Assembly (NCBI GenBank): GCA_029256085.1
Contig: JAQSYP010000001.1
Span: forward strand, 496,001-560,000
From: Caryophanales bacterium
GTDB taxonomy: Bacteria > Bacillota > Bacilli > CAJFEE01
Direction: 5' to 3'
DNA length: 64,000 bases
Positions 6,871-58,137 of the stretch are shown here, one piece after another; within the stretch, counting starts at the first letter, position 1, and each line of letters begins with the position of its first letter. The notes under the pieces were generated by a model that was given only the letters and a program-made list of their open reading frames with translations, searched no databases and had not been told where the DNA came from. The position numbers were made by a program, and so were the translations under genes.

Positions 6871-6927
6871 TTTTTATATAATAACTAAATCGTTGAGTAA
6901 GGAAAGTACTTAATTTTTAATTCTTTA

Positions 6928-38878: not shown

Positions 38879-38910
38879 AGCGGCAATTTCATCTGTGAAA
38901 TGCCGCTTTA
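38879..38910. terminator. Shared hairpin between coaD and ylbJ
   Basis: AGCGGCATTTCA/TGAAATGCCGCT with a TCTG loop and one bulged base. The ylbJ stop codon lies in the hairpin. T-tracts flank it on both strands, so it can serve both convergent genes. Confidence 0.7.
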
Positions 38911-41883: not shown

Positions 41884-42273
41884 TTATGGATTAATTAGTT
41901 TGTCTCTTTGTAAAATGTGATCACTTATCCATGAAACAACAAAATCCAATATAGAAAGTATGTATTTATCTTGATCCTCATCAATTTCTAAAAAGTTTAA
42001 ACTGTTAACTCTTTCTATGAAATCATCATGTTCAACCTTATGTGATAGGAACTTTTTGTAGCCAATACTTTTCATATATTCTTCTTCTGATCTAAAATGG
42101 AAAATTGTATATTCCTTTAGTTCATCAATAATTTTTACAATTTCATCGTACTTATCATGTACATAATCATCTTTTAACAGATCATATGCTTTCCCAGTTA
42201 GATCAAATAATACTTTGTGTTGTTCGTCAATGCTTTCTACCCCTACTAAAAAGTCATCTTTCCATTTAATCAA
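41884..42273 (-). CDS. Bacteriohemerythrin
   Basis: A 129-residue four-helix di-iron protein. Ligands are visible in the usual order: SIDEQHKVLFD (His, with the downstream acidic), HFRSEEEYM (His and Glu), HKVEHDDF (two His) and SDHILQRD (His and Asp). It binds oxygen or NO reversibly. I chose TTG 42273, five nt after GGAGGGG, because the family starts LIKWKDDFLVG; an upstream ATG at 42303 lacks a site. Its role (oxygen or NO buffering) is inferred; nitrite reductase lies 14 kb away in the same island. Confidence 0.9.
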   Translation of the reverse strand: MIKWKDDFLVGVESIDEQHKVLFDLTGKAYDLLKDDYVHDKYDEIVKIIDELKEYTIFHFRSEEEYMKSIGYKKFLSHKVEHDDFIERVNSLNFLEIDEDQDKYILSILDFVVSWISDHILQRDKLINP

Positions 42274-42391
42274 ATTAACCCCTCCAAAACATTTGAAATT
42301 CACATTAATAATATCATATAGATTAGTATTAATATAGACTAATAGTTGTTATAATTAATTATATTTTTTGAAAACATAAAGGTGTGAAAAA

Positions 42392-43129
42392 ATGTTAGGT
42401 ATACTTCTTTATTTTAGTGGTACAGGTAATACTAAATTGATAGCGGATAATTTTCTAAAAGTCTATAATCAAAAAAATATTACATTAGATATTTTGTCTA
42501 TTGAAGCAGCTACAGAAATTGATAACTCAAAATATAATTTTATAATAATAGGTTTTCCTAACCATTTCGGAAGCACTCCTAAATTTTTTGTTGATTATTT
42601 AATTAGTAGGATTCCTCCAACCAAGGTGACAATTCCTGTAGGGTTATTTTGTACAGAAGCAATCCCCGATTCAACATCATTTGTTGAAGTTGAAGACATT
42701 ATGTCAGGTAAGAATTATAACATAATTACTAAAGAACATTTTCATATGCCGAATAATTTGAGAATAGAGGAGATAAGCAATATTACTAATGAAGAAGTTG
42801 ATGAAGAAAAAATATTTTCAAAAATTCAACTTTTTGTTGAAGCTTTTTCATTCAATAAATGTAATAGTGAAAATTTTAACGTCATTGGACATTCATTTTC
42901 AGTTGTTCAAGATAATTTGTTAGTAGATAAGAATCTGTGTATTAAATGTAGGTTCTGTTTAAGAAACTGTCCATTTGATAATATAAAATTTGAAGATCAA
43001 CAAATTAAGATTCTTGAAAACTGTGAGAATTGTATGAGGTGCGTCAATATCTGTCCTAAAAATGCCATTAATTATAGTAATTCGAAAATTAACCAATATA
43101 AAGATAATATAGGGCTTGTTTTTAAATAA
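42392..43129 (+). CDS. EFR1-type flavodoxin-ferredoxin fusion protein
   Basis: A 245-residue electron-transfer protein. The N-terminal flavodoxin-like half begins LLYFSGTGNTKLIADNF (FMN phosphate loop) and has GFPNHFGSTPKFFVDYL. The C-terminal half has two [4Fe-4S] ferredoxin motifs: C183, C186, C189, C193 and C211, C214, C217, C221. EFR1-family proteins of this build are redox partners in anaerobes; partner unknown here. ATG 42392 follows AAAGGTGTG. A possible -10 (TATAAT, 42350-42355) lies upstream. Confidence 0.88.
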   Translation: MLGILLYFSGTGNTKLIADNFLKVYNQKNITLDILSIEAATEIDNSKYNFIIIGFPNHFGSTPKFFVDYLISRIPPTKVTIPVGLFCTEAIPDSTSFVEVEDIMSGKNYNIITKEHFHMPNNLRIEEISNITNEEVDEEKIFSKIQLFVEAFSFNKCNSENFNVIGHSFSVVQDNLLVDKNLCIKCRFCLRNCPFDNIKFEDQQIKILENCENCMRCVNICPKNAINYSNSKINQYKDNIGLVFK

Positions 43130-43133
43130 ATTT

Positions 43134-43174
43134 AAAGCTGACTCGTGGTCTAGTTAGACACGTGAGTCAGCTTT
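43134..43174. terminator. Terminator between the EFR1-like gene and the pilX-like gene
   Basis: AAAGCTGACTCGTG pairs with CACGTGAGTCAGCTTT; long stem with T-rich ends on both strands, serving both convergent genes. Confidence 0.85.
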
Positions 43175-43181
43175 AATTATT

Positions 43182-44651
43182 TTAATAGTTATATTGATAA
43201 GATGCAGACATTGTCGGAGTGCCTACATATTGACCCTCTATATTTACTGTAGAATTTGGTGTGCTATAACTTCCACATTCGGATTCAAAGCTTGGGGAAC
43301 TTTTGATTGTAACATTATCTGCCTGATTTGAAGAGGTAGCAAATATTTGCGATTTATTTGCGTTTATGTTAGATTTATCACCCATTATTAAACTACCATC
43401 AGTAGAGATTTTAGAATTAGTACCTAGTGTATTTAGATTTTGTTCTATAGTTAATGTACCTTTAACAATAATTTGAGTATTACTTCCGACTGAATTAACA
43501 TTACTTTTTATTGTTAAATCCCCATTGACACATATTTTATTGTTACTTCCAAAGTTTAAATTCCCGTCAATTACCGAATTCGAACCCATATATATTGTTG
43601 AATTATCTGTAGAGTTAATATTTTTAAAGTTTGCAGATCCACCAATATAAATTTTGCTATTGCTTGCGTCAAAACTATGGGCAAAAGTAGCATTTCCGCC
43701 GATTTCTAGTATTGAATTATTACTGTTATTAATATTATCATTAAATACTGCATCACCCGCTACATGTAAATTCATATTCTTAGGGTTATTAATATTACCA
43801 TTGGCAGTTAAATCTTTTGAGAAGTAAAGAGTTGTATTTTCAATTGAATTAATGTTTTTTGAAAATGTAGCATCATTTAGAACTTTTAAAGTTGTATTTA
43901 GAAATTTCTCATTACTGTCGCTTGGGAAAAATGCTGATTGACAGTCAACATTATCAAAATCTTTTAAAGTACTACTGCATAACTCTAAGTTCCCAGGATC
44001 AGGAATATTATTAAAAGTTACAATTGGAATCCATTCCCCACTACCTGATCCTCCTGACCCACCAGACCCATTATCAGATGCAGGTAAAAGTTTAAAGGTA
44101 ATGCTTGTTAATGGAATATCAATTTTTGCATTAAGATTTATTGTTTTATCTATCGATTTTCCTCTGCTTGTAAAACGATACTGAATATTGAATGCATTTT
44201 TGTCCGCATCAAGTTCATGTGAATAAGTATCATTCATAATCGTATAAGAAGATTTACTAATACTATCTACAGAGATACTCTTTTCAACGAGTGGTAACTT
44301 TGAACTTAGCTCAGATTCAATTTCCAACGCTAACCTTTCAAAAATTTCCTTATCATTAGTAGCAGTAAGGTTAATAGTTTCATTTAATGTTCTACTTTTG
44401 TATTTTTCTTGAATAGCTTCTTTTAGGTTATCACTCATTGTATAAGACCCAACTATTGCGTTAATGGCGGTCCTGTAGTATTCTACACCCATTTCAGCTA
44501 AGGATACTGCTTGAAACCTTTCTTCAGTACGGTTTATTTGTTTTGCATTATTAAAAGTAAAGCCGATTATTGACATATATAAAATTGAAAAGACTGTAAT
44601 AAGAAGTAGCACAATTATGAGGGCATTACCTTTTTCATTTTTTAGATTCAT
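43182..44651 (-). CDS. PilX-type minor pilin-like protein with predicted beta-solenoid tail
   Basis: A 489-residue protein. The N-terminus NEKGNALIIVLLLITVF is a PilX-like leader: a short basic part, Gly8 before the hydrophobic helix (9-31), then an amphipathic helix (to about 65). An alpha/beta part runs to about 190, followed by a GSGGSGGSGSG linker (195-205). About residues 250-440 hold nine or so repeats of 18-21 residues, each with an Asn/Ser turn and a short strand. That suggests a parallel beta-helix (bactofilin- or adhesin-like). Cys225, 237, 374 and 459 could form disulfides. Last gene of the divergent three-gene pilin operon. Confidence 0.7.
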   Translation of the reverse strand: MNLKNEKGNALIIVLLLITVFSILYMSIIGFTFNNAKQINRTEERFQAVSLAEMGVEYYRTAINAIVGSYTMSDNLKEAIQEKYKSRTLNETINLTATNDKEIFERLALEIESELSSKLPLVEKSISVDSISKSSYTIMNDTYSHELDADKNAFNIQYRFTSRGKSIDKTINLNAKIDIPLTSITFKLLPASDNGSGGSGGSGSGEWIPIVTFNNIPDPGNLELCSSTLKDFDNVDCQSAFFPSDSNEKFLNTTLKVLNDATFSKNINSIENTTLYFSKDLTANGNINNPKNMNLHVAGDAVFNDNINNSNNSILEIGGNATFAHSFDASNSKIYIGGSANFKNINSTDNSTIYMGSNSVIDGNLNFGSNNKICVNGDLTIKSNVNSVGSNTQIIVKGTLTIEQNLNTLGTNSKISTDGSLIMGDKSNINANKSQIFATSSNQADNVTIKSSPSFESECGSYSTPNSTVNIEGQYVGTPTMSASYQYNY

Positions 44652-44664
44652 AATTTCAGCCCCC

Positions 44665-45135
44665 TCATTTGATCCTAGTTAAAATTGTTTTCGCTTCATA
44701 TTTAACATCTGGATTGTTTTTATCCTTTATAACTATTTTAATATTAAAGTCATTAATATTTGGACTAATTGAAAAGTTGTTTGTTATTAACTCCTCATTC
44801 CCATTCGTAAAATCAAACGCATAAATAGAATAAAGAAAGTTTGTGTTTTCAATTTTCATTGTTTCATCACCAACAACAGTAAATGAGGTAAGGTCTTCAG
44901 CTGAACTCTTTTCAGAAAATTGGAACATGTATGTAGATGTTGAGGTTTGATGTATTCTTGTAAGATTGCTAATTATTGTGTTTGCTTCTTGCTGAAGTAA
45001 GGTCTTGTTAGTAACTACTTTAGAAAAATTAGCCCCTTGAAAATAAATCCCCCAAATTATTACCAATATTATAGATGAAATAGCCATTGAAACGAGCAAT
45101 TCAACTAAAGTTATTCCCTTATTGTTTCGTATCAC
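44665..45135 (-). CDS. PilW-like type IV minor pilin
   Basis: A 156-residue prepilin: leader MIRNNKG then the mature N-terminus ITLVELLVSMAISSIIL, with Gly at the cleavage point and Glu5 conserved. The single helix is followed by a variable beta domain (VVGDETMKIENTNFLYSIY). It overlaps the upstream pilV-like gene by one base and is 13 nt before the pilX-like gene. Minor pilins of this set usually start pilus assembly at the tip. Function inferred from prepilin features and neighbours. Confidence 0.85.
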   Translation of the reverse strand: MIRNNKGITLVELLVSMAISSIILVIIWGIYFQGANFSKVVTNKTLLQQEANTIISNLTRIHQTSTSTYMFQFSEKSSAEDLTSFTVVGDETMKIENTNFLYSIYAFDFTNGNEELITNNFSISPNINDFNIKIVIKDKNNPDVKYEAKTILTRIK

Positions 45136-45620
45136 TAGCTATCACCCTTTACCGTAATATATCCGAAAAGGTCACTAACCTTTTCACCTTTTTTATTACT
45201 AACTAGTATATATACCTTGAATAAACGGTCACTCACTTGTAAAGTTCCAAAAGATTGGTACGATTTATCTATAACTATTTTAATCTCGTATACGCTATCT
45301 TGTGATAAAAGCTCGTATTGAGAATTAGTTGTTGCGATGTCTTCTTTCAACTTCAAGTTTGGATAATTTACTCTACTTAATAACGATGAAGATGGGGAAG
45401 CAGTTTTTAGTAGTAACTTAATATTACTATCTTTCTGTACTGTTACTAATTTCTCTTTTGCAAGATTAACTGCTGTAAGCATTTCTCCAGTTTTATTTGT
45501 CGACTTAGATGCCTGTGGAAAAAACGATAAAAATGAAACGAAAATAATGCCTAAAATAGTTAATGCAGCTAAAATTTCAACTAACGAAACTCCATTTTGA
45601 CTTCTTAATAATTTCCTCAT
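45135..45620 (-). CDS. PilV-like type IV minor pilin
   Basis: A 161-residue prepilin: leader MRKLLRSQNG followed by VSLVEILAALTILGIIFVS, with Glu5 and Gly-1 conserved. Start ATG 45620 is set by AGAGGTTAA eight nt upstream; the longer frame beginning 45689 has no ribosome site and would give an unlikely 33-residue leader. The mature part has TGEMLTAVNLAKEKLVTVQ, as in PilV/GspI-type minor pilins. First gene of the minor pilin operon, divergent from the main pil operon across a 146-nt region. Confidence 0.85.
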   Translation of the reverse strand: MRKLLRSQNGVSLVEILAALTILGIIFVSFLSFFPQASKSTNKTGEMLTAVNLAKEKLVTVQKDSNIKLLLKTASPSSSLLSRVNYPNLKLKEDIATTNSQYELLSQDSVYEIKIVIDKSYQSFGTLQVSDRLFKVYILVSNKKGEKVSDLFGYITVKGDS

Positions 45621-45766
45621 ATATTTAACCTCTTTTATAGGAAAATCGTTTTCTACAATACTTTTAAAATAGTTAAGATTATTATACAATAAAATTTAGT
45701 ATATTTAATAATATTTAGGTCTAATATACTATTTTAATTACCTAGTAACTTTTTGGAGGAGAGAAA

Positions 45767-46714
45767 ATGGAAAAGTTTATAATGACTATTGTATCTATGA
45801 TTATTCTTATTCCAATTTTACTCTTTTTACCATTTGGTTTGAACAGGAAGGGTAAGTTAATATTAGGAATATTTTCCTATATAATTGCATGCCTAGGAGT
45901 ATTAAGTTCCTTGATTTATACATTTGAAATTACTATTGTTTTATTGTTATCTCTAATTATTGTATCTACATTTTTGTTCTCACGAATGCCAAGAGTATTT
46001 TTTGGTAATCCAACTAATAAAAGTAAAAGAGATTTACGTTTTATAAAAAGTGTACAAGTTAAATCTGATTTGGATACAGTCTCTAAAGTCTTTATTAAGG
46101 AAGAAGAAAAGGTAATTGAGGAAGAAATTGTTAATTTAGATGAAAAGCCAACTTCTGATGAGATGGTTATTGAAAATGAAAAGCCGAACTTTGATGAATT
46201 AGTTATTGCAGATGAGGAATTATTTTTTGAAGAGATTGCTAATGTAGTTGAAGAAGAATTAATTGATGATAGCATTTCCCCTTTTGAAGTAATAGAACCT
46301 TCAATAGATGGGGATTTGGAAGCAAGTGTGCCTAATGATATTTTAACTAATAATAGTTTAGAAGAAGTAGTGGATGAAGACTGGGAAGAAGATGTATCAT
46401 TCCTCATAAATCGATCTGATGAACAAAGTCTAAAGGATATACAAGATATTTCTGATGAATTTAAAGTACCGAACTATATGTCAGAGATTGAACAACTTAT
46501 ATCTGGAGAAGTTCCTGATATAAGTATTGAAGATCAAGAACATCTTGAACAAGACATTACTGACGAAGATTTCGAAATAGATGTAATTGAAAATTTAAAG
46601 CGAGATTCACATGAGATGGAAGATCAGGAAGAGGATAATGACAAATCCGCGGACTTATGGGAAGAGATAGTTGTTGATCCGGAAACGAAAGATAATAAAG
46701 GTGTAAGTTTTTAG
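45767..46714 (+). CDS. Acidic membrane-anchored protein heading the pil operon
   Basis: A 315-residue protein I do not recognise. Three predicted helices lie at about 5-23, 30-50 and 54-72, then a long very acidic cytoplasmic or external tail (about 108-310). The tail has two adjacent 13-residue repeats, DEKPTSDEMVIEN (125-137) and NEKPNFDELVIAD (137-149), and a Glu/Asp content well above its neighbours. ATG 45767 follows GGAGGAGAG. Co-oriented and 15-25 nt from the VanW-like gene, so likely part of the pilus operon. Function unknown. Confidence 0.6.
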   Translation: MEKFIMTIVSMIILIPILLFLPFGLNRKGKLILGIFSYIIACLGVLSSLIYTFEITIVLLLSLIIVSTFLFSRMPRVFFGNPTNKSKRDLRFIKSVQVKSDLDTVSKVFIKEEEKVIEEEIVNLDEKPTSDEMVIENEKPNFDELVIADEELFFEEIANVVEEELIDDSISPFEVIEPSIDGDLEASVPNDILTNNSLEEVVDEDWEEDVSFLINRSDEQSLKDIQDISDEFKVPNYMSEIEQLISGEVPDISIEDQEHLEQDITDEDFEIDVIENLKRDSHEMEDQEEDNDKSADLWEEIVVDPETKDNKGVSF

Positions 46715-46738
46715 TTCAACATTGAGGAGATGTATAAC

Positions 46739-47878
46739 TTGAGAAACAACCAGAGAATAATAATATTTTTTGTTTTATTTTTCAGCACTTTTTTTATATA
46801 TGGTTTTTCTCACATTGGTGTTATCGCCTATGATTTTTATAATGAAGGAAATACAGGGTATCAAAAGGATACGACGGTAGCAACTATCAATTTATCAGGT
46901 AAAGATAAGGCAAGTGCACAGAGCGCTATTGCAGAAAAGATAGTAAGTTGGAAGCAGCAAAGCACTGTAAAGGTATCATTTAAGGAAAACGAATACACAT
47001 TAGATAATGAAAAAATCTATATAGATATTGATAAAACTTTAACTATGCTTTCAGAAGGTGAAGATAATAGTTTAATAGTTAATATTAGCTTTGAAGAGGC
47101 AATCATTAACTTAACAGGACAAAAAAACCTAGAGAAGATTATTGATATTAGCAAGTTCAGATCAGATCTTACAAAGGCAGTTGATAAACTAATAATCGGA
47201 AACTATTCCTTCCACTTAGAGGATTACTTACTACCGACTGCAAACCATGAATTACAACTAAACCAATATTCTATTAAGCTTTCAGATGAAGATGAAAAAA
47301 GCACAACATTAAAGAAAGCTACCATTAACATACCTAAGAATTCACAGTTTTCACTTCTTGATGAGATTAAAAAACAGGGGTTTGCGTTTACAAATGAAAA
47401 TGTACCTAACATTATTGCATCTTGTATTTATAAAGTAATATTACCTACAAATTTTATTATTGTAGAACGCAATATTAGTAGTAGTATGCCTGAATACGCC
47501 GAATTAGGTTATGAAGCTGAAATTAATGAAGATAGTGGCTTAGATCTTAAGTTCTATAATTCGAATGCTGCTAATTATAAGCTTGATATTCAAGTAATTA
47601 GTGGAGAGCTTTATGTAACATTGAAGGGACCAAGCCTACTAAACGTTTACAAGATTACATCTGAAGGTGAACAAATATTCGAGCCGAAAAAGGTAATACA
47701 GTATGACCCGCTAATTCATAGCACTTCTGAAGTGATTGTGCGTGAAGGGAAGAATGGTGGGCTTATTAAAATATATCGGGAAATCTACAATAATAAAGGC
47801 CAAAGACTTTCAAAAGAACTAATATCAGAAGACTTCTATCCTCCTGTTCATACAATTGAAGTAAGAGGATTAAGGTAA
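46739..47878 (+). CDS. VanW-like protein with degenerate core and C-terminal G5 domain
   Basis: About 379 residues. An N-terminal anchor helix (about 8-30) precedes a region like the YoaR/VanW N-terminal domain (SGKDKASAQSAIAEKI), and then a stretch (about 198-260) that lines up with VanW: FSLLDEI, a Cys-x-Tyr, FIIVERNISSSMPEYAELGYEAEI. The usual GGGICQxSSTLYN is lost. The C-terminus fits a G5 domain (VREGKNGGLIKIYREI). TTG 46739 is nine nt after GAGGAG; ATG 46730 directly abuts it. VanW-like genes often accompany pilB in Firmicute pilus loci. Role unproven. Confidence 0.7.
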   Translation: MRNNQRIIIFFVLFFSTFFIYGFSHIGVIAYDFYNEGNTGYQKDTTVATINLSGKDKASAQSAIAEKIVSWKQQSTVKVSFKENEYTLDNEKIYIDIDKTLTMLSEGEDNSLIVNISFEEAIINLTGQKNLEKIIDISKFRSDLTKAVDKLIIGNYSFHLEDYLLPTANHELQLNQYSIKLSDEDEKSTTLKKATINIPKNSQFSLLDEIKKQGFAFTNENVPNIIASCIYKVILPTNFIIVERNISSSMPEYAELGYEAEINEDSGLDLKFYNSNAANYKLDIQVISGELYVTLKGPSLLNVYKITSEGEQIFEPKKVIQYDPLIHSTSEVIVREGKNGGLIKIYREIYNNKGQRLSKELISEDFYPPVHTIEVRGLR

Positions 47879-47923
47879 AGCTGACATTGTTAAATCTAAA
47901 ACACTATAAAGTGGGGAAGATAG

Positions 47924-49585
47924 ATGAAGCAAACTCGTAAACGGCTAGGGGACTTGTTAGTTGAGGCTGGATTAATAACTGAACAACAACTTCAAACAGC
48001 CCTTGCAGAGAAAAAGGCCGGTCAAAGACTAGGCGACGCTCTATTACAGCAAGGATTTATTACCGAACAGCAATTAATTGAGGTGTTAGAATTTCAGTTA
48101 GGAATACCTCACATTACTTTATTTAGATATCCATTTGACACAAAATTGTTCTCTCTTATTCCTAAAGAGACAGCCAAGAGAAATATTCTTATCCCACTAA
48201 AAAAAGAAGGGGACAAACTATTTGTTGCCATGGCTGATCCGATGGACTTCTTTGCGATCGACGATTTGCGATTAGCGACAGGGTTCCAGATTGAAACGGC
48301 AATTGCAACTAAAGATGATATCATAAAAGCTATTAATAAATATTACGATATGGAAGATAACTTTGATGAGATTGTTGGTGATCAGGCACAACCAGAAATT
48401 GTTAGAGATGAAACAATTACTGATCAAGACTCTCCAGTTGTTCGCTTAGTAAATCAAATTTTATTAAATGCAGTCACTTTAAAAGCTAGTGACATTCATA
48501 TTGATCCTCAAGAAACAAAGATTGCTGTTCGTTATCGTGTAGACGGTGTTCTTAGAACTGAACGTATACTTCCTAAAAATACACAAGGTGTACTAACTGC
48601 TAGGATTAAAATCATGTCAAACTTGGACATTACTGAGCATAGAACACCTCAAGATGGAAGAATTAAAGTGAATGTAGAGTTACATCCTATTGACCTCCGT
48701 GTTTCAACTCTACCTACTGTATTTGGAGAGAAAATAGTTATGAGAATACTGGATTTATCTAGTACACTCAATGATATTAATAAACTAGGTCTTAATAGGC
48801 TTAACCTGGAAAGATTTAATAGACTAATTGAAAGTCCAAGCGGTATCGTTCTTATAACTGGACCAACAGGTTCAGGGAAATCATCTTCACTATACGCGGC
48901 CTTAAACAAGCTTAATAGTGAAGAAGTAAATATTATTACTGTTGAAGATCCAGTAGAATTTCAGATAGAAGGTATAAATCAAATTCAGGTTAATCCGAAT
49001 ATAGGAATGACGTTTGCAGCTGGTTTGAGATCCATTTTAAGACAGGATCCGAACATAATCATGATTGGTGAAATTCGTGATAAAGAGACTGCAGATGTAG
49101 CAATAAGAGCCTCATTAACTGGACATTTAGTTTTAAGTACGCTTCATACAAATGATTCATTGGGTACGATTACAAGACTAGTAGATATGGGTGTTGAACC
49201 ATTCCTTGTAGCATCATCACTTAATGGTATAGTATCTCAACGATTAGTTAGAAGAGTTTGTCGCGACTGTAAAGAGGAGCATAAACCTACAATCCGTGAG
49301 TTGGAAATATTTAAGAGTAGAGGAATCACAATAGAGAAGGTATTACGTGGACGTGGATGTTCATCATGTAATATGACGGGATACAAGGGACGAATTGCGA
49401 TTCACGAAGTTCTCGTTGTTAATGATGAGTTGCGTAGATTAATTATGAATCGTGAATCAATGACTAAACTCAAAGATTTAGCAGTCAAAAATAAAACAAT
49501 ATTTTTAATCGATGATGGTCTACTTAAGATAAAGCAAGGCATTACAACTACTGAAGAAGTATTAAGAGTAGCTATTCCTGAATAG
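47924..49585 (+). CDS. pilB: Type IV pilus assembly ATPase PilB
   Basis: A 553-residue hexameric extension motor. The N-terminal MshEN/T2SSE_N region (1-150) has two RLGDxLxxxGLI/FITEQQL repeats, a c-di-GMP-binding type fold in relatives. The ATPase core has Walker A GPTGSGKS (313-320), Walker B with IMIGEIRD (379-386) and a His box STLHTND. Zn-binding cysteines are C446, C449, C479 and C482 (CRDC, CSSC). No frameshift. It differs from the shorter ComGA of competence pili. ATG 47924 follows GTGGGGAAG. Confidence 0.95.
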   Translation: MKQTRKRLGDLLVEAGLITEQQLQTALAEKKAGQRLGDALLQQGFITEQQLIEVLEFQLGIPHITLFRYPFDTKLFSLIPKETAKRNILIPLKKEGDKLFVAMADPMDFFAIDDLRLATGFQIETAIATKDDIIKAINKYYDMEDNFDEIVGDQAQPEIVRDETITDQDSPVVRLVNQILLNAVTLKASDIHIDPQETKIAVRYRVDGVLRTERILPKNTQGVLTARIKIMSNLDITEHRTPQDGRIKVNVELHPIDLRVSTLPTVFGEKIVMRILDLSSTLNDINKLGLNRLNLERFNRLIESPSGIVLITGPTGSGKSSSLYAALNKLNSEEVNIITVEDPVEFQIEGINQIQVNPNIGMTFAAGLRSILRQDPNIIMIGEIRDKETADVAIRASLTGHLVLSTLHTNDSLGTITRLVDMGVEPFLVASSLNGIVSQRLVRRVCRDCKEEHKPTIRELEIFKSRGITIEKVLRGRGCSSCNMTGYKGRIAIHEVLVVNDELRRLIMNRESMTKLKDLAVKNKTIFLIDDGLLKIKQGITTTEEVLRVAIPE

Positions 49586-49594
49586 GAGGGCATT

Positions 49595-50635
49595 ATGAAA
49601 GAAAGAATAGACAATTTACTTAGAGCAGCTTTTGATTTAAAAGCATCAGATATACACCTAACCGTAGGGGTTCCACCAATATTAAGAATCAACGGTGACC
49701 TAAAAAAGTATGGAAAAGATATAAATAAGCCAGCAGATACTGAAGGAATGGCTAGAGCAATGATCACTGATGAAATGTGGACAAAGCTAAAGGACAAAGG
49801 GGAGCTTGATTTTTCTTATAGCGTACCTGGAGTGTCTCGTTTTCGTGTAAATGCATTCCATCAGCGATCCTGCTTAGCTTTAGCGATTAGAGTCGTACCT
49901 ACTAAGATTCCGACAATTCAAGACCTTATGATGCCAGCTATCCTTGAAAGAATTGCAGATAAGCCACAAGGTTTAGTTTTAGTTACAGGTCCAACAGGTA
50001 GTGGGAAATCTACAACTCTAGCAGCAATGATTCAATTTATGAACCAAAATATGAGAAAGCATATAATTACTTTAGAAGATCCAATCGAATACTTGCATAA
50101 ACACGGTAATTCAATTATTGACCAACGAGAAGTTGGCTACGATACTAATAATTTTGCGAACGGACTAAGGGCAGCACTTCGACAAGACCCTGACGTAATA
50201 CTTGTAGGTGAGATGCGTGACCTAGAAACAATCCAAACTGCTATTACCGCAGCTGAAACAGGGCACTTAGTTTTAGGTACATTGCATACATCAAGTGCGC
50301 CAGCTACAATAAACCGTATTATAGATGTTTTTCCACCATCACAGCAGCCGCAAATTAGAATTCAGCTTGCATCTGTACTTGTTTCAATAGTGTCTCAGCG
50401 TCTGTTTCAAACAGCAGATCGCTCAGGAAGACGTGCTGCAACAGAAATATTGATTAACAATTCAGCTGTAGCAAATTTAATTAGAAATGAGAAAATTCAT
50501 CAAATAATTAACATCATGCAGACATCTCGCGCCCAAGGTATGCATACTTTAGATACAAGCATAAACGAACTCATAGATTCTGGGATAATCACAAGAGAAG
50601 CTGCAGAACCTTTCTTACAGGAAAGGCTGACTTAA
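49595..50635 (+). CDS. pilT: Type IV pilus retraction ATPase PilT
   Basis: A 346-residue retraction motor: LKASDIHLTVGVPPILRINGDL at the N-terminus, Walker A GPTGSGKS (132-139), ITLEDPIEYLH, Walker B ILVGEMRDLETI, His box GTLHTSSAPATINRIID, and the retraction motif near AVANLIRNEKIHQI (canonical AIRNLIRE-like). Presence of PilT points to retractile, twitching-type pili and separates this locus from Bacillus com genes, which lack one. 10 nt after pilB, 2 nt before pilC. Confidence 0.95.
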   Translation: MKERIDNLLRAAFDLKASDIHLTVGVPPILRINGDLKKYGKDINKPADTEGMARAMITDEMWTKLKDKGELDFSYSVPGVSRFRVNAFHQRSCLALAIRVVPTKIPTIQDLMMPAILERIADKPQGLVLVTGPTGSGKSTTLAAMIQFMNQNMRKHIITLEDPIEYLHKHGNSIIDQREVGYDTNNFANGLRAALRQDPDVILVGEMRDLETIQTAITAAETGHLVLGTLHTSSAPATINRIIDVFPPSQQPQIRIQLASVLVSIVSQRLFQTADRSGRRAATEILINNSAVANLIRNEKIHQIINIMQTSRAQGMHTLDTSINELIDSGIITREAAEPFLQERLT

Positions 50636-50636
50636 T

Positions 50637-51851
50637 ATGGCACGCTTTAAATACTCTGGAAGAGATCGAAAAGGCAAGAGTGAAGGTGTTATTCAAGCAA
50701 GTTCTAAGCGTGAAGCGATGTTAAAGCTACGAGAAAAAGGGGTTAGGGTTTTAGAATTATCAGAGGTTGCAGAAACGTTTCTTACAAAAGATATTTCCTT
50801 TAGAAACCCTGTAAAACTACAAGACTTCACTATTTATTTGAGACAATTTTCAGTTTTACTTAGGTCTGGTGTCTCGGTTGTTGATTCAACTAAGATTTTA
50901 GCTGCTCAAACAGATAGCAAAAACTTAGGGAAAATATTATCTGAGATTGAACAAGATTTACGAGAAGGTAATCCATTATCAGACTCAGCTGCAAAACATA
51001 AAAAAGTATTTTCAACTATGTTTATTAACATGGTAAAAGCTGGTGAAGCTGCCGGGAATATGGACGAGACTCTTGATAGATTAGCAGATCATTATGAAAA
51101 ACAACATATGACTAGACAAAAAATAAATTCTGCACTAGCATACCCGATATTTCTAGCATTTATGGCCCTAGGTGTTGTAACTTTCTTACTTGTTAGCGTT
51201 GTTCCTACATTCGTTCAAATGTTTGCAGACTTTGGTAGTGAACTACCTGCAATAACTAGATTTGTACTTAAGGCTTCTCAACTTGCTCAAGTTTATTGGT
51301 GGGTATTGATTTTATTTTTTTTGCTTCTTGGAATTGCTATTGCAGTAATACGGAGCAGGAAAGAAACAAAATATTATTTAGATTACTTTCTGCTCAGGTT
51401 ACCTATCTTTGGGAAAATGCTTCAAAAGGCAGCATTAGCACGAATGTCTAGAACACTAAGTTCACTATTCTCAAGCTCAGTCCCAATTTTGCAAGCACTC
51501 GCGATAGTTGAAAAAGTTGTAGAGAATGAAGTCATCGCTAAGGTTATCAAAGAATCAAGAGACTCGCTAGAAAAAGGTAAGTCATTGACTGAGCCAATGC
51601 GAAAGCACTGGGCATTTCCGCCTTTAGTAACTCAAATGATAGCTATTGGTGAGGAAACTGGTAACCTTGATGCAATGCTTGCAAAGGTAGCAGACTTCTA
51701 TGAAAAGGAAGTCGAAATGGTTACCGATCGCTTAAAGGCGATGATTGAGCCGATAATGATTGTCGTCTTAGCAGGACTCGTTGGAACTATCGTTACAGCA
51801 ATCATGGTTCCAATGTTTGAAATCTTTAATCACATTGGTGATTACGAGTAA
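50637..51851 (+). CDS. pilC: Type IV pilus inner-membrane platform protein PilC
   Basis: A 404-residue GspF/PilC-family protein with two repeats of the T2SSF fold, each with a cytoplasmic helical bundle, and three membrane helices (about 170-192, 220-240, 375-398). Motifs: FTIYLRQFSVLLRSGVSVVDS and MFINMVKAGEAAGNMDETLDRLADHYEK in the first half, MSRTLSSLFSSSVPILQAL and MIAIGEETGNLDAMLAKVADFYE in the second. It connects the motors to the pilus base. 2 nt after pilT. Confidence 0.95.
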   Translation: MARFKYSGRDRKGKSEGVIQASSKREAMLKLREKGVRVLELSEVAETFLTKDISFRNPVKLQDFTIYLRQFSVLLRSGVSVVDSTKILAAQTDSKNLGKILSEIEQDLREGNPLSDSAAKHKKVFSTMFINMVKAGEAAGNMDETLDRLADHYEKQHMTRQKINSALAYPIFLAFMALGVVTFLLVSVVPTFVQMFADFGSELPAITRFVLKASQLAQVYWWVLILFFLLLGIAIAVIRSRKETKYYLDYFLLRLPIFGKMLQKAALARMSRTLSSLFSSSVPILQALAIVEKVVENEVIAKVIKESRDSLEKGKSLTEPMRKHWAFPPLVTQMIAIGEETGNLDAMLAKVADFYEKEVEMVTDRLKAMIEPIMIVVLAGLVGTIVTAIMVPMFEIFNHIGDYE

Positions 51852-51961
51852 AATATTTGCTAATTTACTAGTAAAATAGTCTTTATTTTTTCAGAAGTTT
51901 CTGATAGTCTGATAGTAGAAAAGTCTTACTTTAATAAATGAATTTAGAGGGAGAAATGGAA

Positions 51962-52405
51962 ATGAAACAATTACTTAAAAAGAGATTAAAAAATCAACGC
52001 GGTTTAACATTAGTTGAATTACTTGCTGTAGTAGTAATCATAGGTATAATTTCTTCAATCGCAGTACCTAGTATTGGAAAGATTATTGAAGAAACAAAAA
52101 TCAAAGCTGCAAAGGCAGATGCGGTTCAAGTTATTAATGCAGCTAAACTTTATGTAGCTGCTACTGGCACAGTAGCAACGTCTACTACTGGTTCAACTAT
52201 TTCTGTAACAGATTTAGATGATTATGTTGATGAAGTTAATAATTTAAACAATAATTATTATGTAACACTTAATAATGGAGAATTTACTATAACTGCAACA
52301 TCTTCTAATGATACGGGATTAACTTTTAATGGTGCAACTATTAAAGAAATAAATGCTGCTCCTAAAACACAAAAAATAATACCAACTGCTCCAACTTCCC
52401 CATAA
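51962..52405 (+). CDS. Major type IV pilin candidate (PilA)
   Basis: A 147-residue prepilin. Leader MKQLLKKRLKNQRG (14 residues, very basic) is followed by the mature start LTLVELLAVVVIIGIISSIAVP with Glu5. A Ser/Thr-rich head (TVATSTTGSTISV) and a Pro/Thr C-terminus (TPKTQKIIPTAPTSP-like tail) follow. Cysteine is absent, so there is no disulfide-bonded D-region. ATG 51962 is eight nt after AGAGGGAG; in-frame ATGs at 51938 and 51956 are badly spaced. It has a 110-nt upstream gap, the largest in the operon, consistent with extra expression control. Called major by place and size. Confidence 0.88.
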   Translation: MKQLLKKRLKNQRGLTLVELLAVVVIIGIISSIAVPSIGKIIEETKIKAAKADAVQVINAAKLYVAATGTVATSTTGSTISVTDLDDYVDEVNNLNNNYYVTLNNGEFTITATSSNDTGLTFNGATIKEINAAPKTQKIIPTAPTSP

Positions 52406-52426
52406 GAGATTATCTGAGGTTCTAAT

Positions 52427-53188
52427 ATGATCTTACTTCTCTTATACATTTTCATTATCGGAACTATCCTCGGTTCTTTCTATAACGTAGTAGGACTACG
52501 TGTTCCGATGAACAAATCTATAGTTAGACCTAGGTCTAGTTGTTCAAGCTGTGGTCATCAGCTTCGAGCAATAGAGCTACTTCCAGTAATTTCATATTTG
52601 ATTCTTAAGGGGAAATGTCGCTCATGCAATGAGCACATTTCTCCTATTTATCCATTTATGGAATTTATCACAGGAATATTATTTGTATCAGCTCCACTTG
52701 TTGTTGGATTTACGGGAGAATTGTTTATTGCGTGGACTCTGATATCATTATTAGTTATTATTGTTGTATCAGATATATCGTATATGCTTATCCCTGATAA
52801 AATTTTAATCTTCTTTGCAGGGATTTTTTTATTTGAAAGAATCTATTCACCTCTCACTCCATGGTGGGATTCAATTTTAGGTAGTTTAATTGGATTCATC
52901 ATTCTTCTGTTAATTGCTATTGTTAGTAAAGGAGGAATGGGTGGGGGCGATATTAAGCTCTTTGCCTTAATTGGATTTGTACTAGGAACAAAAATCCTAC
53001 TAATCTCATTTTTTCTAGCTTCATTTTTCGGGGCAATTTACGGTATAATTGGAATGATTTTTAATCGTTTGAAAAGAAAACAAGCTATACCATTTGGACC
53101 ATTTATTGCGTTAGGCACAATAACTGCATACTATTTTGGTAATGAACTTGTTCGAGCATATATGAATTTTATTACAGATGTTATGTAG
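52427..53188 (+). CDS. pilD: Prepilin leader peptidase/N-methyltransferase PilD
   Basis: A 253-residue polytopic bifunctional enzyme. The cytoplasmic zinc loop has CSSCGH and CRSCNEH; the peptidase aspartates are in VVSDISYMLIPD and GGGDIKLFALIG. GSFYNVVGLRVP opens the methylase-active N-terminus. It cleaves the leaders of the pilin and of the three minor pilins upstream. ATG 52427 lies 21 nt after the pilin stop. Distinct from a second peptidase (ComC) that may exist elsewhere. Confidence 0.94.
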   Translation: MILLLLYIFIIGTILGSFYNVVGLRVPMNKSIVRPRSSCSSCGHQLRAIELLPVISYLILKGKCRSCNEHISPIYPFMEFITGILFVSAPLVVGFTGELFIAWTLISLLVIIVVSDISYMLIPDKILIFFAGIFLFERIYSPLTPWWDSILGSLIGFIILLLIAIVSKGGMGGGDIKLFALIGFVLGTKILLISFFLASFFGAIYGIIGMIFNRLKRKQAIPFGPFIALGTITAYYFGNELVRAYMNFITDVM

Positions 53189-53203
53189 CTAGGAGTTTTG
53201 AAG

Positions 53204-54187
53204 ATGGTTCTTTTTTCTAGTAATCGAGTTGTTAATCTTGTTATAACTGATCAGGCTATTCGATATGTTGAGGTTAAGCCGAACGATCCACTAATACCAC
53301 TAAAATGGAAGGAAAGAATACTTCCGACTGGTATTATTAAGGATGGAAAAATATTCGATCATAATTCACTTTCAATTATATTAGATGAGTGTGTATCCGA
53401 GTGGAAGCTTAAAAAGCGTAAGGTGCGATTTATCGTTCCTGATACTTTTATTAATATTCGCAAGGTATCAATACCTGCCGATATTCGTGATGATGAAATA
53501 ACAGGATACTTATATCTAGAACTTGGTTCTACGATACACTTGCCATTTGATGAACCTGTTTTTGATTATTATATTTTGGGACAAGATGTCGAGAAGAAAG
53601 AACTTTTAATCTTTGCATCACAAGAAGAGAATGTTTCTGAGTATGCAAACTTATTATCTTCAGCTCGTCTTAGACCAATCGCTGCTGATATTTCTCCGTT
53701 GTCATTATACCGACTGTATTATTACTTAGATTCACCATCAGAAAATGAACACTTACTAATGGTTCAATTCGATATAAGTGGTGCAAATATTTGTATTTTT
53801 GAAGATCAAGTTCCATTTTTCATGCATCATGTAGGAATTGAATATGATAGTTCTTTATGGGAAACTAGCACAAAGAGGTCAGGTCAGTTTGAAATGACTT
53901 TTAAAGGCGATATAACTCAGATGAACTTGCAGCTTGAAGATATATATAAGGAAATTAATCGTCTGATGGATTTTTACAGATATTCTGTCCACCAAGGAAA
54001 AAAAGAGGTTAATAAAATTGTTGTAACTGGTGACCACCCTTTACTTATCAATATTGTAAAGGAAATGGAAAGTCGTTACGATGTGACTTTGAAATTACTA
54101 CCAGAACTTCCTGGTGCACTAGGGAAGGGTAGTCTGCTTCCTCGTAGCTTTTATTTAGCACTAGGTTTAGCACTAAAAGAGGTGTAA
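53204..54187 (+). CDS. pilM: Type IV pilus biogenesis protein PilM
   Basis: A roughly 327-residue actin-like (FtsA-fold) cytoplasmic protein. Early VVNLVITDQAIRYVEV is the phosphate-1 strand; RKVRFIVPDTFINIRKVSIPA, LMVQFDISGANICIFE (phosphate 2) and NKIVVTGDHPLLINIV (adenosine loop) follow. It would bind the N-terminus of PilN and link motor to alignment complex. ATG 53204 is eight nt after AGGAG; the upstream in-frame TTG 53198 is too near. Ends 4 nt before pilN. Confidence 0.9.
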   Translation: MVLFSSNRVVNLVITDQAIRYVEVKPNDPLIPLKWKERILPTGIIKDGKIFDHNSLSIILDECVSEWKLKKRKVRFIVPDTFINIRKVSIPADIRDDEITGYLYLELGSTIHLPFDEPVFDYYILGQDVEKKELLIFASQEENVSEYANLLSSARLRPIAADISPLSLYRLYYYLDSPSENEHLLMVQFDISGANICIFEDQVPFFMHHVGIEYDSSLWETSTKRSGQFEMTFKGDITQMNLQLEDIYKEINRLMDFYRYSVHQGKKEVNKIVVTGDHPLLINIVKEMESRYDVTLKLLPELPGALGKGSLLPRSFYLALGLALKEV

Positions 54188-54191
54188 ACAG

Positions 54192-54914
54192 ATGCTTGTA
54201 GAAATTAATCTCTTACCAAAAAAAGAACAAAAACGAAGAACTCTTTTAGGCTTATCGATATTGGTTTCGATACTTTTTATTGCTGTTGTAGTATCTACGT
54301 TTTTACTGAGTAGAACTTACGATGCAAAGATTATATCACTAGACAAACAATTAGCTTCAGTTAAGCAAACTCTTGAGAAAAAAGATAAAGGTAAAGCTGA
54401 AGAGATAAATAAGAATGACAATGATTCATATGCTAATCTAGAAAGTGCAGTTGCTTGGGCAGAAGGTTATCCAATAAAAACTGTGCCAATTCTTAGAAAA
54501 CTAATTTCATTGTTACCAGAAAGCGGTAGATTACAAACCTTTCAATATAGTGAAGTTGGAACTGTAAATATATCAGTCCAATTTGAAACGAGTCGTGAAG
54601 CAGCAATATATCTAAGGTCATTACTAGATTGCAACTGGTTAAGTGAAACTAAGTTAAGAACATTAACTGCTAATAAAATAGTACTACCGACTATTCCAGA
54701 GGAACCTACTTCAAATACAACACCTCAAACTATTGAACCTAATAACAATAATGTGGGTGCTGGTGATGTGGATTTTAATGATAATGATTATGAAAAAGTT
54801 ATCGATTACATTCCTAGATATATAGGGAAGTATGAGATAAAGCTTAACAGTGATGTTATTAAGAAGGAAATTAAGGAAAACTCTGAGAGTTTGCAAAAAG
54901 AGGTGGATCAGTAA
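54192..54914 (+). CDS. pilN: PilN-like type IV pilus alignment protein
   Basis: A 240-residue bitopic protein. The cytoplasmic MLVEINLLPKKEQKRR is the conserved PilN motif that binds PilM; one helix spans about 18-42; a coiled coil (43-70) and a ferredoxin-like periplasmic part (95-150; IKTVPILRKLISLLP, VNISVQFETSREAAIYLRSL) follow. The tail is Asn/Pro-rich (TSNTTPQTIEPNNNN) and ends acidic. Overlaps pilO by one base. Divergent in length from Gram-negative PilN. Confidence 0.87.
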   Translation: MLVEINLLPKKEQKRRTLLGLSILVSILFIAVVVSTFLLSRTYDAKIISLDKQLASVKQTLEKKDKGKAEEINKNDNDSYANLESAVAWAEGYPIKTVPILRKLISLLPESGRLQTFQYSEVGTVNISVQFETSREAAIYLRSLLDCNWLSETKLRTLTANKIVLPTIPEEPTSNTTPQTIEPNNNNVGAGDVDFNDNDYEKVIDYIPRYIGKYEIKLNSDVIKKEIKENSESLQKEVDQ

Positions 54915-55579
54915 TGAAAACACAATTATCAAAGAAGGAAACTGTGATTATTGTGGTAGGATTTATGTTTCTACTTTCCCTTATTGTTGCTTCTTATTTA
55001 ATCATAATACAACCTAAGAGAGAGGAAATTAATGCTCTCGATGAAGAAATAAAGACTACCCAAAAGCTTCTCACTATTTATGATTTAAAGCCAAATAATA
55101 ATCAAGGTAATGAATACAAAAACATTAACCAGTTAAAAGCAAAAGTTCCTGTAAGCCCATTATTCGAAAAATTTATGTATGATGTAGAGAAATCTGAATT
55201 AATTTCTGAGAGCATTGTAATAAATATGGAGCTTCAAGATGAACAAGATGCTACTCAACTAAACAAAGAGCAAAAGCAAATCGAAAATCCGTTAGAAAAA
55301 CAATTAGATGTTAAAGAAGAAACAGAAGGCAAGACAACACCACAAATTAAACTACCGTCAGGAATGAAAAAGTGGACAGTAACATTAACTGTTGAATCAC
55401 CAAAATACAAAAATCTTGAAAAATTCATCGAGGCTCTAGAAGCAACTCAAAGAATTGTAGTAATCGACACTATCGATTTCACTGACAAAAAAGAAATTAC
55501 AAGTGGAATTCAAGAATCAGGAAATCTTGTTTATAATGTTTCGGTAACAGCATTTTACATGCCGGAAATAACTAAATAA
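54914..55579 (+). CDS. pilO: PilO-like type IV pilus alignment protein
   Basis: A 221-residue bitopic protein with a helix at about 11-32, a coiled coil (33-62; REEINALDEEIKTTQKLL) and a C-terminal ferredoxin-like domain (about 155-220; KKWTVTLTVESPKYKNLEKFIEALEATQRIVVIDTIDF). A Gln/Glu-rich linker lies between. It pairs with PilN. Last gene of the pilus operon; a short hairpin terminator follows. No pilQ is expected since there is no outer membrane. Confidence 0.86.
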   Translation: MKTQLSKKETVIIVVGFMFLLSLIVASYLIIIQPKREEINALDEEIKTTQKLLTIYDLKPNNNQGNEYKNINQLKAKVPVSPLFEKFMYDVEKSELISESIVINMELQDEQDATQLNKEQKQIENPLEKQLDVKEETEGKTTPQIKLPSGMKKWTVTLTVESPKYKNLEKFIEALEATQRIVVIDTIDFTDKKEITSGIQESGNLVYNVSVTAFYMPEITK

Positions 55580-55588
55580 TAAAAATAA

Positions 55589-55612
55589 ACTTGACTAAAG
55601 CCAAGTCTTTTT
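55589..55612 (+). terminator. Terminator of the pil operon
   Basis: ACTTG pairs with CAAGT (loop ACTAAAGC, partly extending the stem), followed by CTTTTT. A short stem. Confidence 0.6.
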
Positions 55613-55640
55613 AATATTTAGTTAGCTTAAAACGCGGTGG

Positions 55641-55760
55641 AAAACTGCTGGAAATGTATACATTTCCCCAGCGGGAACAGCACGAGCCGAAAATCCATTT
55701 TTGCAAGTTAAATTGCAAAAATTAGTTGAGGCCGTGCCCGCGGAAAGCGAGCAGTTTCTG
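55641..55760 (-). repeat. Dispersed palindromic element, family A copy 4 (inverted)
   Basis: The same compound palindrome in the opposite orientation: AAAACTGCTGG ... CCAGCGGGAACAGCACGAGCC ... TTTTTGCAAG, AATTGCAAAAA ... GGCCGTGCCCGCGG ... CGAGCAGTTT. It carries an extra GAAATGTATACATTTC palindrome near one end (55651-55667) not seen in the other copies. It lies between the convergent pil and nrfA terminators. Confidence 0.85.
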
Positions 55761-55804
55761 CAAGTATACTTATTAAAATTTATACTTTCTTTACTATACA
55801 AAAT

Positions 55805-55831
55805 AATCCCAAAAGCTGAGCTTTTGGGATT
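55805..55831. terminator. Terminator of nrfA (bidirectional)
   Basis: AATCCCAAAAGCT/AGCTTTTGGGATT with a GA loop. Plus-strand tail is TATTTTTTTATT; the minus-strand tail is ATTATTTTG. It ends 8 nt before the nrfA stop. Confidence 0.8.
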
Positions 55832-55838
55832 TATTTTT

Positions 55839-57275
55839 TTATTGCTCTACCATTGGTGGGAAATAATCATTTGTGGCATGATCTTTTTTCTTTGTTGAAT
55901 CTGGCTCATCAACAACCGCTTTCATTCGTTCTTTTATTTTCAACTCTAACTCATTAATATCTACATTTTTCGCCTGTAGAGCAGTAGTAGCTATCTCTAA
56001 AGCCTTTTTTGAAGAAAGTATAGACTTTTCGAGGTTAGCTAAAGCGCCTTCAGGATCATGGAAGCCTGTACTGTTTTCAGCAGCAACGAAATCCCAATAC
56101 CACTGAGCATAGTGAACTTGTGATTGTACAGCGGCGATCTCACCTGAATCTGCTCCTACAGTTATCATTTTATTTATATAATAATGTGTTCTAACAGATA
56201 TTTCTTGTGCTGCATGTAGTTTTTTCATATGTCGTTCTTGAATGTCATAAATTGCTTTAGTAACTTGTTCTTTCGTAGACTCTTTATGACATGTTAGACA
56301 AGTTCCATCTAAATCTCTTAACGGTGAAGTCATTGTATGTGAACGGAATTCTTTGCCTTCAGGAGAAGTGTGCTTTGCCATATGACAGTCAACGCAATTT
56401 GCTCCACGTTCTCGATGCTTCCCGGTCATGTAAGTTTCAAAGTCTGGATGCTGTGCTTTAAGAATAGGTGTTCCAGATACTGTATTCTTGAAGTCGCCCT
56501 CATTCATAAAGCTAAAAGCGTAATAGTAACCAAACCCAGCAGCGGCAGTATATCCAATTCTAAGTGGTAGTGTTACCCTTTTTTGTACACTTCTAAAATA
56601 GTATTCAACGTGGCACTGGCCACAAACATAATTTTTCATTTCGGCAGGTGGCGCTTTGGTCACATCAATACCTTTATTACCCATTGCTTGTACAAAATGA
56701 GGTCTTGTTACTTTTAAATCCATAGTTTCTGGATCGTGGCAATCAGAACAACCGATTGACTCGTGTTTTAAGCTTTCGGCTTTAGGCAGAATATCTTCTT
56801 TAAAACTAGAATTATAGTACCTGTCACCCATTGCTTCAATTAGGTTTGGCACAGCTGTTGACTTACATGTTAAGCAAGCTCCAATAGACTTATCGTTTAC
56901 TCGAAGAGTTTTAGTAACATCTTCTATTGCGTAAACATGTCCACGGTCTTCGTTATAGTCTAATGCAAATCCATAACCGTTGAATAGAATTGGTAAATAC
57001 GGTTCTTTATTAACACTAAATTTCGTTTCTTTGACTGATCCATTAAACTTTGTTTTAGCTTCTAACTCAGTCTGCATATAGGTGTTATATTGAAGCGGAA
57101 ACTTATTTTTGAAATATGAATTAGGATAAAGCTTTTTAACTTCATTTTCTACATGCTTATATACTACTTTTGTTTTTTCCTTTTTCTCATTTAAAAGAAT
57201 AAAGGAAATTGCAATAATTATAATACTTAATATTGTTACAAATATGATTGTCTTTTTGTTTAGTAATTTTTTCAC
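55839..57275 (-). CDS. nrfA: Cytochrome c nitrite reductase, ammonia-forming (NrfA)
   Basis: A 478-residue pentaheme enzyme that reduces nitrite to ammonium with six electrons. The catalytic heme is CLTCK (134-138, the NrfA-specific Lys ligand). Four CxxCH hemes follow at 176-180, 218-222, 294-298 and 326-330. An N-terminal helix (9-29) with no Lys/Arg-Ala-x-Ala cleavage site suggests it stays anchored outside the membrane. No nrfH quinol dehydrogenase adjoins it. ATG 57275 follows GAAAGGAATG. Upstream lies an Fnr-type box at the right position. Confidence 0.96.
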   Translation of the reverse strand: MKKLLNKKTIIFVTILSIIIIAISFILLNEKKEKTKVVYKHVENEVKKLYPNSYFKNKFPLQYNTYMQTELEAKTKFNGSVKETKFSVNKEPYLPILFNGYGFALDYNEDRGHVYAIEDVTKTLRVNDKSIGACLTCKSTAVPNLIEAMGDRYYNSSFKEDILPKAESLKHESIGCSDCHDPETMDLKVTRPHFVQAMGNKGIDVTKAPPAEMKNYVCGQCHVEYYFRSVQKRVTLPLRIGYTAAAGFGYYYAFSFMNEGDFKNTVSGTPILKAQHPDFETYMTGKHRERGANCVDCHMAKHTSPEGKEFRSHTMTSPLRDLDGTCLTCHKESTKEQVTKAIYDIQERHMKKLHAAQEISVRTHYYINKMITVGADSGEIAAVQSQVHYAQWYWDFVAAENSTGFHDPEGALANLEKSILSSKKALEIATTALQAKNVDINELELKIKERMKAVVDEPDSTKKKDHATNDYFPPMVEQ

Positions 57276-57392: not shown

Positions 57393-57965
57393 TTAATCTA
57401 TTTTAATGTTTGTATGTTCGAGTTGAGCAGCATATGCAGAAATAATTGATCCTATTGCTTGTATCCAACTACCAAGAAATTCTAGAAGTCGTTTGTCGTC
57501 TTCTAAATCTTTTAAATCAGCTAAACCTCCAACAGCTTGCGTTGAGTTCCCTATTACTTGGAGTATATTTCCAATTGAGTCTAATCGCTCGCTCGGTGTG
57601 TTGTCAACTAGCACTTGAAAAGCTGCAATTATACCACCGAGTGCTTGTAATAAGTTTCCTGTAATATCAAGTTTGATTGCCTTTACATCATTACTTGTTG
57701 TTAAGCTAAATAAAACGGCAACATTACCAGAAGTTTGTATTAAATTTCCACCTTTTTCTAGAGAATCAGGTTCCTCTTCAGAAGCCTCAACAGAATTACC
57801 AATCCCTTGAAGTGCATTTCCTAAAAACTTAAGATCATCACTTAATTCCTTATGATTAAATCGGGTTAGACTTTTATACAGTTTTGGTGTACTACCAATA
57901 GCGGCAATGATCGTTCCAATGGCTGTTATCCAAGAGCCTACAATTTCTCTGTTTAAATCCGCCAA
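57393..57965 (-). CDS. Repetitive DUF6944-like protein of unknown function
   Basis: A 190-residue protein built from six or seven copies of a 14-17-residue amphipathic motif with core G[NS]xxQxxG: GSWITAIGTIIAAIG, GNALQGIGNSVEA, GNLIQTSGNVAVLF, GNLLQALGGIIAAFQ, GNILQVIGNSTQAVGG and GSWIQAIGSIISAYAAQ. Repeated Gly, Ile and Gln on one face suggest a helical layered solenoid. I recall such Bacillus proteins as DUF6944, function unknown. ATG 57965; 117 nt upstream of the nrfA start on the same strand, with the Fnr box between, so it is separate. Confidence 0.65.
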   Translation of the reverse strand: MADLNREIVGSWITAIGTIIAAIGSTPKLYKSLTRFNHKELSDDLKFLGNALQGIGNSVEASEEEPDSLEKGGNLIQTSGNVAVLFSLTTSNDVKAIKLDITGNLLQALGGIIAAFQVLVDNTPSERLDSIGNILQVIGNSTQAVGGLADLKDLEDDKRLLEFLGSWIQAIGSIISAYAAQLEHTNIKID

Positions 57966-58137
57966 ATTAGTTCTCCACCTAACATTAGAAAATTCATAAA
58001 AGGAGTAATCTTTAATATTAGGTTATTTATAATTTGAAATTTAGTGACTCATTTTGGCAATTAACAAGGTTTACACATACACAACCATCAATAACCATAA
58101 GTATTAATAAACAAGTCAACTAAAGGTGATGATAGTA

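Follow-up and report, generated by a model that had tools for sequence, protein, structure and literature searches.

We examined a type IV pilus (T4P) gene cluster in a 64,000-nucleotide stretch (the window) of the Caryophanales bacterium assembly GCA_029256085.1. The pilus part spans 43182-55579, with three minor pilin genes on the minus strand and, on the plus strand, orfX, a VanW/G5 gene, pilB, pilT, pilC, pilA, pilD, pilM, a pilN-like and a pilO-like gene, in that order (Table 1). The PilB, PilT, PilC, pilin, PilD, PilM, PilN and PilO of the original prediction, with its three divergent minor pilins, are all there as uninterrupted open reading frames, nearly all recognised by family models and the rest by homology; orfX and the VanW/G5 gene had been overlooked. 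The interval then given, 42392-57275, takes in the pil core, but its end genes, for an EFR1-family ferredoxin and NrfA, are non-pilus genes. The flanks ylbJ and ylbK were also named correctly, but the insertion between the end of ylbJ (40085) and the start of ylbK (58126) is longer, at 18 kb, and its non-pilus cargo adds glucosidase, hemerythrin and DUF6944 genes to the ferredoxin and NrfA genes.

The components expected of a type IVa pilus (T4aP) are present: PilB, PilT, PilC, PilD, class III prepilins and PilM/PilN/PilO. PilB keeps Walker A, GEIRD, four cysteines and two RLG-type MshEN motifs; its nearest solved structures by sequence are PilF/PilB, and its N-terminus also matches an MshE chain. 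PilT keeps Walker A, GEMRD and AVANLIRNEK, the last of which we take to correspond to the PilT motif AIRNLIRE, and its nearest solved structures by sequence are PilT. In PilD there are two CxxC pairs and a GGGD motif. PilM was assigned by Pfam, and PilN and PilO solely by homology to syntenic Bacillaceae genes: PilN has no Pfam match and PilO a T2SSM match below threshold, while both match the PilN and PilO of Bacillaceae pil clusters. N_methyl was found in PilA and two minor pilins, and is absent from minor pilin 3. The locus differs from a ComG operon (ComGA-GG without PilT or PilMNO) in carrying PilT and PilMNO. Judged by its sequence, it is an intact monoderm T4aP gene set, complete and retractile as had been claimed; gene content, motifs and a PilT score over the family cut-off all bear this out. 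Such a set predicts a monoderm pilus that would extend and be retracted by PilT.

Table 1. Features of the ylbJ-ylbK interval (window coordinates)
Feature	Position	Strand	Evidence
ylbJ, left flank, backbone	38889..40085	-	Gate domain; orthologue adjoins ylbK in 24 other Bacilli loci
Alpha-amylase family glucosidase, in insertion, non-pilus	40177..41847	+	Pfam Alpha-amylase 1e-151
Hemerythrin, in insertion, non-pilus	41884..42303	-	Pfam Hemerythrin 1.4e-13
EFR1-family ferredoxin, in insertion, non-pilus	42392..43129	+	NCBIfam NF038196, 114 bits (cut-off 75)
Minor pilin 3, pilin-like N-terminus and predicted C-terminal beta-solenoid	43182..44651	-	Weak ComGG/GspK N-terminal match; AlphaFold2; syntenic homologues in Bacillaceae clusters
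Minor pilin 2	44665..45135	-	N_methyl 2e-8
Minor pilin 1, ComGE/PilV-like N-terminus	45135..45689	-	N_methyl 6e-5; 45% to Robertmurraya/B. methanolicus minor pilin
orfX, hydrophobic N-terminus and acidic tail	45767..46714	+	No Pfam match; membrane segments read off the sequence; 45% to L068/L070 counterpart; conserved in Bacillaceae pil clusters
VanW/G5 protein	46730..47878	+	VanW and G5 domains; in nearly all Bacillaceae pil clusters
pilB, extension ATPase with MshEN	47924..49585	+	T2SSE E 6e-137, MshEN; motifs; PDB PilB and MshE chains
pilT, retraction ATPase	49595..50635	+	TIGR01420 (pilT_fam), 473 bits (cut-off 319); best PDB matches PilT; motifs
pilC, platform protein	50637..51851	+	T2SSF 6e-66; 72% to Robertmurraya
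pilA, major pilin candidate	51938..52405	+	N_methyl; class III signal RGLTLVELL
pilD, prepilin peptidase/methylase	52427..53188	+	A24_N and A24; CxxC pairs, GGGD; sole PF06750 match
pilM	53198..54187	+	PilM_2 9e-17
pilN-like	54192..54914	+	Homologous to pilN position of Bacillaceae clusters, about 25-40% identity
pilO-like	54914..55579	+	Weak T2SSM; homologous to pilO position of Bacillaceae clusters
Bidirectional intrinsic-terminator-like hairpin, closes pil operon and nrfA	55805..55831
nrfA-type cytochrome c552, in insertion, non-pilus	55839..57275	-	Cytochrom_C552 8e-107
DUF6944 protein, in insertion, non-pilus	57393..57965	-	Pfam DUF6944 9e-50
ylbK, right flank, backbone	58126..58950	+	Patatin; synteny

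Chromosomal sites of pil clusters

The junction comparison called for by the original prediction was made around ylbL in 40 further Bacilli genomes. In 24 loci both ylbJ and ylbK were found, always adjacent (gaps < 220 bp, some overlapping); in the other 16, one or both were not found within the stretch. No pilus gene occurs in any of the 40 stretches, and the ylbJ-pil-ylbK order is neither ancestral nor universal. Because the pair adjoins in every other placed locus, the predicted insertion at this point is upheld, and the comparison supports reading the window's pil cluster as a derived insertion. In a broader search of 160 relatives, ylbJ and ylbK were neighbours in many further genomes, and in some ylbJ lies elsewhere. 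Among the insertion genes given family scans there is no integrase or transposase.

In G001, the one other family member compared, ylbJ and ylbK are on separate contigs (C10, L147, and C3, L194), beside unrelated genes. The junction is thus disturbed in both family members, but without a pilus in G001, whose T2SSE ATPases are ComGA only and which has no pil locus.

Named genomes were scanned for pil clusters with a PilC alignment. The same cluster was returned from many Bacillaceae, with maf downstream in nearly all and usually radC and mreB as well; maf lies 3′ of the cluster in 32 of 33 loci (L066-L097 and L099, the exception being L095), and direct reading of L066, L070 and L051 showed spoIIB, maf, radC and mreB-mreC-mreD. 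The cluster also has radC and mreB near it, mostly with maf, in several other families (G008, G011, G012, G016, G023, G033). The 10-kb flanks of the named-genome loci stop short of folC, which we take to lie upstream from the B. subtilis order folC-comC-spoIIB-maf and from the window genome's own site. By this gene order, the pil cluster is widespread in Bacillaceae at folC-[pil]-spoIIB-maf-radC-mreBCD.

The clusters of Robertmurraya siralis (L068), Bacillus methanolicus (L070) and Anoxybacillus calidus (L066) have the same genes as the window cluster in the same order (divergent minor pilins, orfX, VanW/G5, pilBTCADMNO), with identities of 75-79% for PilB, 78-80% for PilT and 71-72% for PilC. 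In many Bacillaceae clusters a PRC gene separates orfX from VanW, and some have another pilin gene behind pilO; the window cluster has neither. Novelty for Bacillaceae, which the original prediction implied, is contradicted by this gene-for-gene likeness at folC-maf and by the literature, where pilT-bearing pil operons in Gram-positives, and pil operons in Bacillus sp. NRRL B-14911 and Geobacillus, have been on record since 2011 (Imam et al., 2011; PMC3244431). Word searches of that paper found neither folC nor VanW, and on this showing it describes neither the location seen here nor the transfer proposed here. The pilus type itself is already known; what is unusual is its site and probable foreign origin.

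The window cluster does not lie between folC and maf. At that site the genome has valS, folC, orfX′, PRC, VanW′, spoIIB, maf, radC, mreBCD and minCD, with no pil gene and a VanW′-spoIIB gap of about 140 bp; the usual pilus site has lost, or never had, the pil core yet kept its neighbours. The orfX′, PRC-barrel and VanW/G5 genes kept without pil occupy L190:6690-10290 (G000:C4:234690-238290, G000 being the window genome). The arrangement suggests that the three proteins may serve some purpose other than the pilus. Trees of VanW and PRC were poorly resolved and were not used as proof.

Phylogenetic conflict and origin

Pil and housekeeping genes of the window genome disagree in their relation to Bacillaceae. 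Its mean identity to Bacillaceae falls well below that within Bacillaceae for mreB (76.8% vs. 86.8%), radC (62 vs. 78) and maf (42 vs. 57), and likewise far below for mreC and mreD. For the pil genes the two values are alike: pilB 74.3 vs. 74.0, pilT 72.8 vs. 71.1 and pilC 67.1 vs. 66.8, with pilM equal to or above the within-Bacillaceae mean, pilD and pilN close to it and pilO a little lower. In the marker tree from a clean taxon set the Bacillaceae core excludes this genome (support 97), while the pil tree places it in a clade of 13 rows (support 99), with Robertmurraya, B. methanolicus and Neobacillus as its nearest rows. By the approximately unbiased (AU) test, the pil genes reject a Bacillaceae core without this genome (p 0.00125), and the markers reject a Robertmurraya/Neobacillus clan that includes it (p 0.004). 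Robertmurraya and B. methanolicus also supply the best, or nearly the best, matches to minor pilin 1 and orfX. The taxonomy of the genome search puts the window genome well outside Bacillaceae, since all but one of the 60 relatives share only its class; these 59 include G052, whose genes group with Metabacillus.

A first AU test of the markers had rejected the Bacillaceae core without the window genome; the likeliest reason is that the marker tree had Peribacillus alkalitolerans and Psychrobacillus within that core, and the test was repeated with the cleaner set. Composition was set aside as evidence of transfer: pilB, pilT and pilC appear GC-rich in a sliding window, but their third-position GC (GC3) is near the window average, and conserved host genes such as mreB and valS have similar GC. 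Counts of PF11104 (PilM) matches in relatives were not used either, most weak matches being other proteins in frames of about 720 or 430 amino acids.

We regard it as likely that this complete, probably functional Bacillaceae-type monoderm T4aP was acquired horizontally from a Robertmurraya/Neobacillus-like donor and now lies at ylbJ-ylbK, reached either directly or by way of folC-maf. Since the pil genes nest within Bacillaceae and the markers fall outside, transfer of the whole cluster from a Bacillaceae donor is the simplest reading, and the pil-free genome of the same family also speaks for it. Several points weigh on the other side. In the marker tree the host sits on a long branch, and a long-branch effect could account for part of its basal position; the trees are quick ones with SH-aLRT (Shimodaira-Hasegawa-like approximate likelihood ratio) support only; and the Robertmurraya/Neobacillus clan of the marker test was named after inspection of the pil tree. 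The GC3 of the pil genes is near the host average (0.24-0.28 vs. 0.226 +/- 0.027 for the window), so any transfer would be old. There is no tRNA in the window and no repeat of at least 10 bases shared by both ends of the insertion. Finally, the PRC protein at folC-maf is about as close to Bacillaceae as these are to each other (55.1 to Bacillaceae vs. 55.4 within), as if that site too had held Bacillaceae-like material.

This last point would also fit vertical inheritance, in which a native folC-maf cluster moved or was duplicated to ylbJ-ylbK, leaving orfX, PRC and VanW behind, with no transfer from outside. The folC-maf site retains exactly the neighbours of the missing pil core: PRC, absent from the new cluster, stays there, and orfX and VanW are present at both sites. 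We nevertheless consider relocation alone improbable: the pil genes are nested in Bacillaceae and the host genes are not, the other family member has no pil locus, and the VanW copies share just 26% identity, less than the new copy shares with many Bacillaceae VanW, and so are not recent duplicates. Transfer into folC-maf by homologous replacement, followed by a move to ylbJ-ylbK, is a two-step form of the preferred reading and joins the phylogenetic conflict with the Bacillaceae-like PRC at the old site; it needs two events, however, and VanW′ is not Bacillaceae-like (long branch, best identity 26%), which leaves it a rather unlikely course, if slightly less so than relocation. That the locus is instead a type II-like secretion or DNA-uptake pseudopilus seems very improbable: PilA and the minor pilins do resemble GspG/GspI/GspK and ComG at their N-termini, with sub-threshold scores, but a bona fide PilT is present, type II systems lack PilT (PMC9765702), and the genome already has a separate Com system.

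Horizontal acquisition from Bacillaceae would mean that an entire, intact pilus apparatus crossed from one order of Bacilli to another and came to rest in a conserved backbone junction, and the two sites of this genome would offer a natural test of which parts form a portable T4P unit (pilB to pilO, the minor pilins, orfX and VanW) and which do not (PRC). Rearrangement and transfer of loci are general features of the type IV filament superfamily (PMC6668835). A complete T4P insertion was described in 2022 from clinical strains of Paenibacillus thiaminolyticus (PMC9765702); as here, pilB, pilT, pilC and pilMNO lie in an insertion (about 14 kb) of a Bacilli genome and PilB has MshEN, but that insertion is a predicted mobile element that varies between strains of one species, whereas at the window locus no such element was seen and the transfer would be old.

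Predicted function and other pilus systems

If the cluster is expressed, PilD would process the prepilins, and PilB would build the PilA filament via PilM-PilN-PilO and PilC once its MshEN domain is loaded with cyclic di-GMP (c-di-GMP). The three divergent minor pilins would prime the filament and cap its tip, the third displaying a beta-solenoid, and PilT would retract it, for adhesion, surface movement and perhaps DNA capture. With MshEN in PilB and 15 GGDEF domains in the genome, a c-di-GMP-responsive extension is plausible; no c-di-GMP riboswitch was found 5′ of the pil genes at the Rfam gathering level.

The AlphaFold2 model of minor pilin 3, built from ten sequences (pLDDT, predicted local distance difference test, 73), has a helix at 6-68, a sheet at 126-189 and short repeated strands at 249-437. 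Beyond the long pilin helix and small sheet there is thus a repeated-strand domain of about 190 residues, a predicted beta-solenoid, which would probably be exposed at the tip and may act as a binding module. Homologues occur at the equivalent position in other Bacillaceae clusters. PDB yields weak structural matches, the best at E 0.018; among them are beta-helical proteins and the Thermus pilin ComZ (E 0.04, probability 0.13). ComZ of Thermus thermophilus, a large minor pilin of the competence system that carries a beta-solenoid, has been put forward as a DNA receptor at the pilus tip (PMC6561018).

PilD is the sole A24_N-type prepilin peptidase found in the genome (sole PF06750 match), and so probably also processes ComGC and its partners of the separate ComG pilus, encoded by a comG operon at G000:C4:~410 kb. 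Two more A24 proteins have no A24_N match, one in a Tad locus (C11) and one isolated (C4:743 kb). As the only full-length prepilin peptidase found sits in the acquired cluster, the fate of DNA uptake may be linked to the acquired pilus. We suggest tentatively, as a possibility more doubtful than the acquisition itself, that the lineage lost its own folC-maf pil core and that a Bacillaceae pilus from outside took its place at a different locus, the single PilD of the foreign cluster now also processing the native Com pilins; if so, the native DNA-uptake system would depend on a horizontally acquired pilus locus.

The Tad-type locus (L043:3927-10658) encodes a TadV-like peptidase, a TadE/G-like protein, a TadA-type ATPase and two T2SSF proteins. 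Com, pil and tad thus coexist in the genome, a combination shared with Bacillus sp. NRRL B-14911 (PMC3244431). The isolated A24 peptidase (206 aa; L045:5319-5939, G000:C4:743.3 kb) follows an apparent 2-oxoacid:ferredoxin oxidoreductase pair. Within the insertion, the NrfA-type ammonia-forming nitrite reductase has a hydrophobic N-terminus and no adjoining NrfH gene. Elsewhere in the window, two tandem T-box leaders lie at 6601-7124 (RF00230, 127 and 121 bits).

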